Shown here: one piece after another, positions 1-3,106 of the stretch
Numbering within the stretch: the stretch's first letter is position 1
How the letters are laid out: every line of letters begins with the position of its first letter
Source: Nitrospirota bacterium
Lineage (GTDB): Bacteria; Nitrospirota; Thermodesulfovibrionia; SZUA-242
Assembly (NCBI GenBank): GCA_027021335.1
Contig: JALUUO010000007.1
Span: 1-57,510, forward strand
DNA: 57,510 nucleotides
Reading direction: 5' to 3'
The notes under the pieces: model-generated
The model's input: only the letters and a program-made list of their open reading frames with translations
Database searches by the model: none
Told to the model about the DNA's origin: nothing
Made by a program: the position numbers and the translations under genes

Positions 1-1134
1 GCTGTAGCTGGAAAGAGGCTTGACTGTAGCATTAAACGTAACAGCCGCAGACAGAGGGTTCTTCGGGTTCTCGGTTCTCCACTTGGAATCCGCATCAAGA
101 TCACCTTTGTCACCACCGGCCATCTGACCCCACTCAAGCCATCCACCGTCATAAAGTTTTACAGGATAGTTGAGTACGCCGTCCAGAAGTAAAAACATAA
201 CAGCCGCTCTACTGCCAGTATCATCGTAAACATATATCTTCTCACCTAAGTCGTCATCTTCAATGCTCGCTGTATATTCAAGCAAGGTTCCGTCAGTATC
301 CAGTAAATCAATATAGTTCAACCACATAGCAGTCCTTATATGCCCTTCAAACGCTACGTCTTGAGATGTCGTTGCACCATCGACGCCATTATATTCATCA
401 GCGCTCCTAACATCTACTATCACGGTCTTTGGATCGTTGTCTCCTGCCACCTTGATCATATCTTCCAGAGGAGCTCTGAATCTGTCAGGCTCCTGTGTAA
501 GATTGCAGACGCTGTACTCGGTGGCTTCCGGAGTTTTAGGATCTGCCTTATCCAACTCGCCTCCTACTTCTACCCATGCGCCATCAGTAGAAGTAGAACC
601 AATAAATCCATCCAGAACTCTTAACTTGCTCCTTGGAAATCCCCAGTACCGGAAATTGAAATATGTCCAGGCAAGCTCAGTAAACGAATCTTTCTGCGAG
701 GTAAGAACAATAAGCGTGCCTCCGTCAATTCCACTGTTCTGGATCACTTTATCTATCTGGGCTTTTGTGGAAACCATACCGGCCGTATTACTTACTCCAT
801 CCGACCTTGGACCTGTAAGCTCTGCGAAAGCGCCAAGCTTAAACGCCCCGGGCACATGCCCCTCAGAGTACCCAGCGCCCACATGCAACACAACTACTCT
901 GTTGTGACCGTACTTGTCGGAGTAACCGTTATCAATCCAGTACTTAAGATCATTCGCACTAATAAAAACATTAATCTTTGGGTCACGTTCCGAGGCTGAG
1001 TCGTACTCATAGTAATCGCCGCAACTGCTCATAAACAAAGGGAGCAGCATTACAGAAACCGATGCCAATATAAGTAAAGACCGGCCTCTGCGCTTTTTCG
1101 GAAAACTTTGCAGAATTTTTTTCAAAACATTCAT
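1..1134 (-). CDS. Exported tandem-rhodanese lipoprotein, partial at window edge
   Basis: The reading frame is open for 378 codons from ATG at 1134 and runs off the left edge. A strong AGGAGG ribosome site lies just upstream. After a basic start comes a hydrophobic stretch ending MSSCG at about residues 35-39, which looks like a lipobox, so the protein is probably a periplasmic or outer-membrane lipoprotein. Two rhodanese-like domains follow. The second has the family signature of thiosulfate sulfurtransferases: VIVDVRSADEY, then a loop YDDTGSRA, then LYDGGWLEWG. The catalytic cysteine expected in that loop is aspartate here. The equivalent loop of the first domain reads LTSQKDSFTE and also has no cysteine. 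So both domains look unable to carry persulfide, although the fold is well kept. The gene lies 58 bp downstream of another exported rhodanese on the same strand and is probably co-transcribed with it. Substrate is unknown. Confidence 0.8.
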   Translation of the reverse strand, partial: MNVLKKILQSFPKKRRGRSLLILASVSVMLLPLFMSSCGDYYEYDSASERDPKINVFISANDLKYWIDNGYSDKYGHNRVVVLHVGAGYSEGHVPGAFKLGAFAELTGPRSDGVSNTAGMVSTKAQIDKVIQNSGIDGGTLIVLTSQKDSFTELAWTYFNFRYWGFPRSKLRVLDGFIGSTSTDGAWVEVGGELDKADPKTPEATEYSVCNLTQEPDRFRAPLEDMIKVAGDNDPKTVIVDVRSADEYNGVDGATTSQDVAFEGHIRTAMWLNYIDLLDTDGTLLEYTASIEDDDLGEKIYVYDDTGSRAAVMFLLLDGVLNYPVKLYDGGWLEWGQMAGGDKGDLDADSKWRTENPKNPLSAAVTFNATVKPLSSYS

Positions 1135-1192
1135 ACTTTCCTCCTCTTGTAATTTATATTATACCCATTTTTCTTTGAAGCAGTTTCCTTCA

Positions 1193-3106
1193 TTATTTAA
1201 CAGTAAATTCCCATTTTACGCTTGGGATCTGATTTCCATCGGCATCCACAGCCACCACTCCCCAGTAGTAGACGTCAGGACTAAGACCGGATACTGCATA
1301 AGTTTTATAGGAACTATGTTCCTTATCATCGGTAGAAACAGTTGAATTATTATCGCCATCTCCACATGACACAAACAGCATTCCTGACGATATAACCACT
1401 GCTGCAAGAAGCAACATTATCTTTCTTCTCTCCCTTATACCGCCTGTAAGCACCACTCCAAACAACAACAGGCTAAATCCTGTTCCAGCATAGTAGTAAA
1501 CATTCTTGTTTTTCAAAGAAGCTACATCATCAGTTGTTATATCATCAGTTATATCCACGCCAGAGCAACCACTTCCTGTTCCCGAGAAATCCGGTTCTTG
1601 ACAATAAAAAAGTTTATAGCTCTCAGCGCCTGTAAAGGGCTTCCATTCAAACGTTAACGAGGAAGGCGTTGTACCACCATCTGCCGGGGAAACCAGTACC
1701 GGAGCATCAGAAGAAGGGGTCTCCGTTGGAAGATTCACTCCTGCTCCTTTTAGATATACAGTTTCATCTGTATCATTGGATGGGATAGAAAGTGTGACTG
1801 GGTCTTCAGAAGCAGCACCTGTAGTGGTGGGAGAGAAGGCAACCGTGATCGTACAAGAATCACCACTAACTATGGTCTGATCTGAAAAGCAGGTTTGTGA
1901 CTCAATGCTAAACGGCGCTGAAAGCGTACCTAAAGTGCCAAGGGTAAGATCTGCACCACCAGAGTTGGTTACGGTTATTATTACAGTAGGTGGTGTTGAA
2001 ACACCCACTTGTATGTTACCAAAATCATATGGATCATTAGACGTTGTAGGTGGAGTTACGTTAATATCAGCGGCAAGCGTGATGGTAAATGATCGTTCGC
2101 CAGGGCCGGCCGGACCGGAAACAGTATCATCCATAGCGTTCGGATTCCAGCTTGTTCCGGCACTGTTTGTCGCACTGGCGTTCCAGGTATGAGTGCCCGT
2201 TAATCCTGTTTGACTAAATGTAAAGTCTGTCCAGACAGCACTTGTACCATTTGAATCCGAGCCAACACTTGATGAATCCAGATAAAGGGAAACATCAGTT
2301 ACCGCCGGATAGAGAAAATTAGCTGCTGTCGGCTCTAATACGCTAACAGTAAAGGTTATATCGCCACTGGAGGGTGTGGCATCTGCCGCTGGAGTTTTCG
2401 AGAAAATCTGGGGTGGAACATTGTCAACACCACCACTGTAATCGGTATATAATGGACCGACTTCTACTTCATTCCAAAGCTTCATACCGCCATACGTGCT
2501 AGTAGTTCCTTGTGTACTACCCTCAATACCATCACTGTCAATATCGTACAGATTGGTAAAATTACCATTCGTGTCAGTCCTGGCGTTATAGAAACCGGTC
2601 GAACCTTGATCCTCTATCCAATGCAGCATCAAATGGCTTCGAACAGCGCTGCGGCAGAGGAGATGTATTTCCGTATCAAAATCTATAACACCTGCCGCAA
2701 GAAGGTTTTCTATAATAGCCTTAACTTCAGTCGGGTCTTCAGGGGTTCTCCTATTAGTTTCCCCCGTATTCCCGTTCGGCCAGTTGGTCGTATTCCAGAA
2801 AGGTATGTTGATCGGCAATTTAACCACCCCATCAACAACCCATGCCGGCGTTCCTTTAGGTGGTGTAGTATCAGGACAAGCAGTACCCAGCCAAGGGGGC
2901 TGACATCCGTTATGCTCATCCACTGTGCGTACATCAAAAATTACAGCTGTAGAGCCCGAGGCAGTAAGCGCCGCAAGAGTTTCTGCCGCAGTTCTATATT
3001 TTCCTGCTGGCAGATCATCAGCACGCACTCCCTGCACCGTAAACAGCAGCAGGCCTGCAAGCATCATAAAAATCGAGTATACCATGTATATCTTTTTCGT
3101 TTTCAT
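1193..3106 (-). CDS. Exported rhodanese protein with Ig-like and split FN3 domains
   Basis: 637 residues with a signal peptide (about 1-29, ending VRA-DD). A rhodanese domain covers about 35-215 and keeps the active-site loop CRSAVRS with Cys151. It is followed by an Ig-like segment (about 228-345), a Hydin/ASPM-like beta domain (about 348-455) and a fibronectin type III domain beginning near 467. The FN3 domain is interrupted: after its first strands, residues 538-581 form two hydrophobic helices separated by RERRK, the second ending in the lipobox-like LFVSC. The FN3 fold then resumes with the usual GLSPDVYYWGVVAVD strand. ATG at 3106 has an AGGAGG ribosome site. The gene leads an operon with the partial tandem-rhodanese gene downstream. 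Function is not established. Periplasmic sulfur transfer is plausible from the intact rhodanese loop. Confidence 0.85.
   Translation of the reverse strand: MKTKKIYMVYSIFMMLAGLLLFTVQGVRADDLPAGKYRTAAETLAALTASGSTAVIFDVRTVDEHNGCQPPWLGTACPDTTPPKGTPAWVVDGVVKLPINIPFWNTTNWPNGNTGETNRRTPEDPTEVKAIIENLLAAGVIDFDTEIHLLCRSAVRSHLMLHWIEDQGSTGFYNARTDTNGNFTNLYDIDSDGIEGSTQGTTSTYGGMKLWNEVEVGPLYTDYSGGVDNVPPQIFSKTPAADATPSSGDITFTVSVLEPTAANFLYPAVTDVSLYLDSSSVGSDSNGTSAVWTDFTFSQTGLTGTHTWNASATNSAGTSWNPNAMDDTVSGPAGPGERSFTITLAADINVTPPTTSNDPYDFGNIQVGVSTPPTVIITVTNSGGADLTLGTLGTLSAPFSIESQTCFSDQTIVSGDSCTITVAFSPTTTGAASEDPVTLSIPSNDTDETVYLKGAGVNLPTETPSSDAPVLVSPADGGTTPSSLTFEWKPFTGAESYKLFYCQEPDFSGTGSGCSGVDITDDITTDDVASLKNKNVYYYAGTGFSLLLFGVVLTGGIRERRKIMLLLAAVVISSGMLFVSCGDGDNNSTVSTDDKEHSSYKTYAVSGLSPDVYYWGVVAVDADGNQIPSVKWEFTVK

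Follow-up and report, generated by a model that had tools for sequence, protein, structure and literature searches.

The question raised by this locus is how a secreted protein can be held in the cell envelope by its C-terminus, when the hydrophobic segments that might hold it lie inside a folded domain. The window (the whole stretch of DNA analyzed here, 57,510 nucleotides of contig JALUUO010000007.1 from a Nitrospirota bacterium) encodes on its minus strand, at 1193-3106, a 637-aa exported protein whose C-terminal FN3 domain is interrupted by two hydrophobic segments, the second ending in a lipobox. The gene and its parts are as follows.

1193..3106, minus strand: whole gene, secreted rhodanese-type protein, 637 aa, split FN3 at the C-terminus (open reading frame; choice_anch_D and lipo-invert profile matches)
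3020..3106, minus strand: N-terminal signal peptide, residues 1-29 (ending QGVRA, followed by DD), type I-like, without lipobox (sequence; N-terminus check)
2417..3019, minus strand: rhodanese-type region, residues 30-230, under Pfam thresholds in the window protein (common to paralogues)
1763..2056, minus strand: choice-of-anchor D / HYDIN-like Ig domain, residues 351-448 (NF012200, PF22544)
1547..1705, minus strand: first half of FN3, strands A-B-C-C', residues 468-520 (AlphaFold2)
1565..1603, minus strand: Cys502 and Cys514, a near-conserved pair after strand C (alignment of 34 representatives)
1436..1495, minus strand: TM1, residues 538-557, Gly-rich, moderately hydrophobic (sequence, alignment)
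1421..1435, minus strand: basic turn RERRK, residues 558-562, predicted cytoplasmic (alignment)
1367..1420, minus strand: TM2, residues 563-580, strongly hydrophobic, ending LFVS (sequence, alignment)
1364..1366, minus strand: Cys581, invariant lipobox cysteine (42/42 rows, 34/34 representatives)
1307..1363, minus strand: Gly/Ser/Asp/Asn-rich tether, residues 582-600 (alignment, AlphaFold2)
1196..1306, minus strand: second half of FN3, strands E-F-G, residues 601-637, ending the protein (AlphaFold2, tail check)
1..1134, minus strand: neighbouring ExtH-like rhodanese, an ordinary N-terminal lipoprotein (LFMSSC38G) that runs off the contig (NF040901, 183 bits, cut-off 200)

The name "rhodanese" for residues 30-230 follows the preliminary description and the architecture, as the region has no Pfam match. 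The Ig domain at residues 351-448 scores 52.2 bits with NF012200 (cut-off 45) and 35 bits with PF22544 (cut-off 25.5).

The hairpin and the fold around it

The interval 1361-1504 of the minus strand translates into residues 535-582, NVYYYAGTGFSLLLFGVVLTGGI-RERRK-IMLLLAAVVISSGMLFVS-C581-G. TM1, the basic turn, TM2 and Cys581 all lie where the preliminary description had placed them, and linkers of approximately 17 and 20 residues flank the hairpin. By its make-up this is a lipobox, LFVSC581-G, which follows the hydrophobic TM2 and has RERRK preceding. It is not the N-terminal signal of SPase II substrates, since the cysteine lies 57 residues from the C-terminus. Only this one of the 44 non-overlapping open reading frames of at least 100 aa in the window has an internal segment of the basic-TM-lipobox kind, and the sole N-terminal one belongs to the adjoining ExtH-like gene.

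Using an alignment of 42 sequences, AlphaFold2 predicts that the two halves combine in a single FN3 sandwich, with strands A-B-C-C' at fragment residues 13-63 and E-F-G at 144-179. The pLDDT of these strands is mostly 91-96, and that of the hairpin and its linkers about 60 or below. The model favours the earlier proposal that the two halves pack together, with the small correction that the insert sits between strands C' and E. Foldseek FN3 matches cover both halves (for instance PDB 3pdd, rmsd 2.7); their E-values, from 0.008 upwards, are weak, which a long insert would lead one to expect, with probabilities near 1 for several, and insulin receptors rank among the top matches. The PF00041 profile matches 36 of the 42 members at E ≤ 0.01, the window segment itself being without a match. 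The fragment core residues Trp31, Tyr40, Trp158 and Phe177 are invariant and stand on both sides of the insert, which indicates that both halves are kept as a fold. There are also unsplit homologues in the same class, in which the halves are 6-16 residues apart.

Conservation and spread

The 42 aligned sequences, among which two genes are represented twice, from different sources, reduce to 34 non-redundant representatives (<70% identity) with a mean pairwise identity of 0.40. The lipobox cysteine is kept in all 42 rows and all 34 representatives, position -1 is Ser or Ala in 41/42, position +1 is Gly in 39/42, and the turn of every aligned member has at least 3 Arg or Lys. The rest of TM1 and TM2 has a mean identity of 34-39%, and we find no invariant residue or motif in TM1 among the aligned members; apart from the lipobox cysteine, all invariant columns belong to FN3, before as well as after the insert. 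The Gly/Ser/Asp tether after the cysteine resembles that of ordinary lipoproteins. From the cysteine to the stop there are 49-73 aa, and this tail is always the end of the protein (42/42). Cys502 and Cys514 are conserved in 28 and 29 of the 34 representatives, and a disulphide between them inside the first half of FN3 is possible.

The source genome, an assembly of 2.7 Mb in 121 contigs, has seven such C-termini, each on a different contig. At E < 1e-20, a 14-member profile spanning the insert finds matches in 43 of the 231 class genomes, and as many as 7 in a single genome; the hairpin was confirmed by eye for the aligned members only. An independent scan gave ten loci from named MAGs, nearly all labelled Nitrospirae or Nitrospirota and one Candidatus Troglogloeales. 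Exported proteins of various kinds serve as hosts: rhodanese-type proteins, proteases of the M12 (reprolysin-like) and M6 types, and proteins with MopE, HAF or SBBP repeats, LamG or Big_5. An N-terminal lipobox is absent in 18 of the 19 hosts with a complete 5' end. In one protein (L110:626-2614, minus strand), an N-terminal lipobox (VFTACGGGGG) and a C-terminal split-FN3 hairpin occur together. A plasmid search with the FN3-hairpin returned no hairpin relative, only a single FN3 fragment. A lipoprotein gene made up of the tail alone did not turn up: the candidates were a 77-aa open reading frame in L117, which is a remnant without the cysteine, and others that are contig edges.

Between the two closest paralogues, the hairpin has 82% identity and a dN of 0.10, and the FN3 halves have 59-63% and 0.30-0.35; the hairpin dS is also lower, so part of its low divergence may reflect gene conversion. 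The rhodanese halves of the two closest hairpin rhodanese paralogues (window 2417-3106 and L065:6308-6997) are 90% identical with dS 0.30, and most of the remainder outside the hairpin is about 45-63% identical with dS above 1.2, a pattern that suggests gene conversion or domain swapping. Related rhodanese paralogues in the source genome are without the hairpin and have different ends, which fits an exchangeable C-terminal module, and one that is not essential for that type of protein. Short Arg/Gly-rich tails end other rhodanese/MopE paralogues of the same genome (L159, L161 and L160, on contigs C5, C40 and C59), reading PAPTRRRRGMRRHR, PAPTRRRGRRMRGR and RRGMRHGRRGR, and one hairpin protein of another genome (L093, in G190) has the hairpin and an Arg/Gly-rich tail together. 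The Arg/Gly-rich end is possibly an alternative C-terminal tail.

A hairpin rhodanese has an ExtH-like lipoprotein downstream of it in L065:2461-6997 (197.9 bits, cut-off 200), as it does in window 1-3106. L065 also holds an ExtI porin (430 bits, cut-off 150), in ExtH-ExtI synteny. The hairpin rhodanese locus is probably a selenite/tellurite reduction (Ext) operon that occurs twice in the source genome, with the window copy cut by the contig end.

Possible fates of the hairpin

The preliminary description left two alternatives, a hairpin that stays uncut and a protein that is cut and lipidated at Cys581. Both are possible, and the invariance of the cysteine favours the cut form; lipidation and cutting at Cys581 would be the simplest account of an invariant cysteine in a lipobox. 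The reading that we prefer, with a probability of about 0.55, is a C-terminal lipid anchor: Lgt and LspA would treat TM2 as a type II signal peptide inside the chain, and strands E-F-G, once lipidated, would stay non-covalently bound to the rest of FN3.

As far as the sequence can tell, the N-terminal signal peptide would export the protein, TM1 would stop transfer and TM2 would re-insert, so that by the positive-inside rule the Arg/Lys turn would face the cytoplasm and the two FN3 halves the periplasm. TM2 has the topology on which Lgt and LspA act: cytoplasmic basic residues, a hydrophobic segment and a periplasmic lipobox. Going by the invariant lipobox, Cys581 would be diacylated by Lgt, and LspA would cut before it. 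Since strands E-F-G are kept in the sandwich, the cut product, a 57-residue piece of lipid-Cys, tether and E-F-G, would stay bound to A-B-C-C' as a C-terminal lipid anchor holding the large N-terminal protein; it is from the single predicted fold that we infer retention after cutting. More speculatively, if TM1 were later removed, the assembly could reach the outer membrane, which the Gly after the cysteine (39/42) permits.

The source genome encodes Lgt, LspA and LolA. This speaks for the lipid anchor, as do the conserved lipobox, tether and FN3 core, the tail that is always terminal, the diverse hosts that mostly lack an N-terminal lipobox, the similar hairpin in a Nitrospiraceae Ig-like domain, and the better conservation of the hairpin than of the FN3 halves between the closest paralogues. 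Lgt has two complete genes there and a third fragment at a contig end (G000:C68:41475-42206, C84:6943-7686 and C67:38132-38242, respectively). Across the class LspA and Lgt are mostly single copy, in hairpin-positive and hairpin-negative genomes alike. A dedicated extra LspA or Lgt was considered and rejected, as most positive genomes have one. Several observations count against the lipid anchor. The normal substrates of LspA have N-terminal signal peptides, one host, L110, already has an N-terminal lipobox, and the tail did not turn up as a separate gene. The N-terminal part would keep TM1 and the remnant of TM2 after the LspA cut, so that lipidation seems redundant unless TM1 is removed, and searches for rhombosortase in the source genome and for exosortase across the 43 positive genomes did not yield the protease that such removal requires.

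How do the other readings fare with the same evidence? The uncut hairpin, in which TM1, the turn and TM2 pin the FN3 domain to the inner membrane and Cys581 is acylated without cutting or not at all, draws on the two TM segments and basic turn of every member and on an FN3 fold that is predicted with the insert in place, and it needs no extra protease. But it leaves the invariant cysteine, the full lipobox grammar, the Gly at +1 and the lipoprotein-like tether unexplained, and we regard it as unlikely. It is hardly credible that the arrangement is due to chance, to misassembly or to a sorting-signal gene and a lipoprotein gene having recently fused in frame: unsplit FN3 homologues do exist, as a fusion would have it, but this reading is refuted by seven paralogues on separate contigs, by matches in 43 class genomes, by named records that independent studies contributed and by an invariant cysteine. 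A recent fusion, the condition under which the preliminary description would have been wrong, is excluded by dozens of genomes and by N-terminal domains that are unrelated to each other.

A two-step sorting, in which an exosortase-, rhomboid- or CPBP-like protease processes TM1, LspA separately frees the lipidated tail, and the mature heterodimer goes to the outer membrane or surface, draws on the first helix. TM1 had been likened to a C-terminal sorting signal, and its shape bears that out: like the helices of PEP-CTERM/exosortase, GlyGly-CTERM/rhombosortase and MYXO-CTERM proteins it is Gly-rich and hydrophobic with an Arg cluster (LLLFG, RRRK), and weak profile matches occur. The profiles do not follow, however. 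Every TM1 match is below cut-off (the best for single members are MYXO-CTERM at 13.4 of 20 bits and LPXTG at 15.5 of 15.9), the window TM1 has no PEP-, GlyGly- or MYXO-CTERM match, and TM1, unlike the PEP- and GlyGly-CTERM helices, is not at the end of the chain and has no motif above cut-off, nor an invariant one. On the side of the enzymes, exosortase is present in 30 of the 43 hairpin-positive genomes, and in five genomes (G388, G268, G093, G140 and G393; L127, L128, L129, L130 and L131) its genes lie 0.9-6 kb from hairpin genes, more often than would be expected of scattered genes. L128 and L130 also have PEP-CTERM proteins beside the exosortase genes. But exosortase is missing in the other 13 positive genomes, some of them complete (G120, G146), and is thus not a general requirement; a dedicated rhombosortase is likewise rejected, with none above cut-off in the source genome. 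Among exosortase, LspA and Lgt (rhomboid and CPBP families being outside this class-wide comparison), no family is found in all hairpin-positive genomes and rare elsewhere. Taken together, this makes two-step sorting quite improbable.

Known anchors and what the hairpin would mean

The arrangement had been thought to lack a standard name. That turned out to be wrong, as NCBIfam release 20.0 has NF058595, "lipo-invert putative C-terminal anchoring domain" (invert_tail). The window protein scores 26-27 bits, below the curated cut-off of 37, and a paralogue in the same genome (C59, 37.2 bits) and a relative (L040, 42.8 bits) are over it; each of the 42 aligned sequences reaches E ≤ 0.01. The window family has the architecture of NF058595, a C-terminal TM, basic turn, TM, Cys and tail, and in both the order at the C-terminus is TM-turn-TM-lipobox-tether-tail. 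The FN3 form matches NF058595 mainly over the hairpin. Within the phylum, Nitrospiraceae proteins give the best matches over the full length, and in these another Ig-like fold hosts the hairpin. There the same kind of hairpin stands before the last two strands, in 7 of 117 Nitrospiraceae genomes (AlphaFold2 gives a poor model of this form, mean pLDDT 56.6). Beyond the seven members, the other weak NF058595 matches examined in the source genome are mostly ordinary N-terminal lipoprotein signals. In the open-access literature we found no paper on lipo-invert or on an internal or inverted lipobox. As far as we found, then, the kind is already known by name, and the split-FN3 form is a variant of a named, apparently uncharacterized anchor domain; what the evidence adds is the split-FN3 form itself, its range, the invariant cysteine, and a tail that is predicted to be an integral part of the fold. 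A wider idea, doubtful for now, is a "split-sandwich lipid staple" that is portable between proteins: LspA would cut at a type II signal hairpin inserted in a beta-sandwich loop, the lipidated C-terminal strands would hold the protein non-covalently, TM1 would be removed, and the heterodimer would be displayed in the outer membrane. The staple would occur in two or more host folds unrelated to each other, FN3 and the Ig-like fold in Nitrospiraceae.

With bacterial lipoproteins of the Lgt/LspA/Lol pathway the hairpin shares the lipobox, the preceding basic residues, the hydrophobic segment and the Gly/Ser tether. Unlike in those, the signal sits inside the chain, some 57 residues before its end, with a TM helix ahead, and most of the protein would end on the far side of the cut. 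MYXO-CTERM proteins, the substrates in the myxosortase system, have a C-terminal TM with an Arg-rich cytoplasmic end and an invariant cysteine that is proposed to be lipidated before intramembrane cutting; that cysteine precedes the single TM, which is discarded (PMC11980579). The hairpin cysteine, in contrast, comes after the second TM, in a true lipobox, and folded sequence continues beyond it.

Domains that are cut and stay together have precedents, among them the GAIN and SEA domains. In the insulin receptor an insert domain interrupts FnIII-2; unlike the hairpin it does not lie in the membrane, and disulphides link the chains. There is a furin site in this insert domain, and after cutting the chains remain associated (PMC7039211). 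We take the likeness to FnIII-2 as an analogy only, and claim no homology.

If the hairpin is cut as proposed, a Gram-negative protein would be lipid-anchored by its C-terminal end with nothing beyond the general Lgt/LspA machinery and fragment complementation of a beta-sandwich. Many surface proteins (up to 7 per genome here) would then escape lipoprotein predictors that consider only the N-terminus, and display applications could borrow the hairpin as a split-domain anchor that is genetically encoded. For the organism itself, it would explain how the envelope retains a rhodanese whose neighbour is the ExtH lipoprotein, in what is probably a selenite/tellurite reduction operon.
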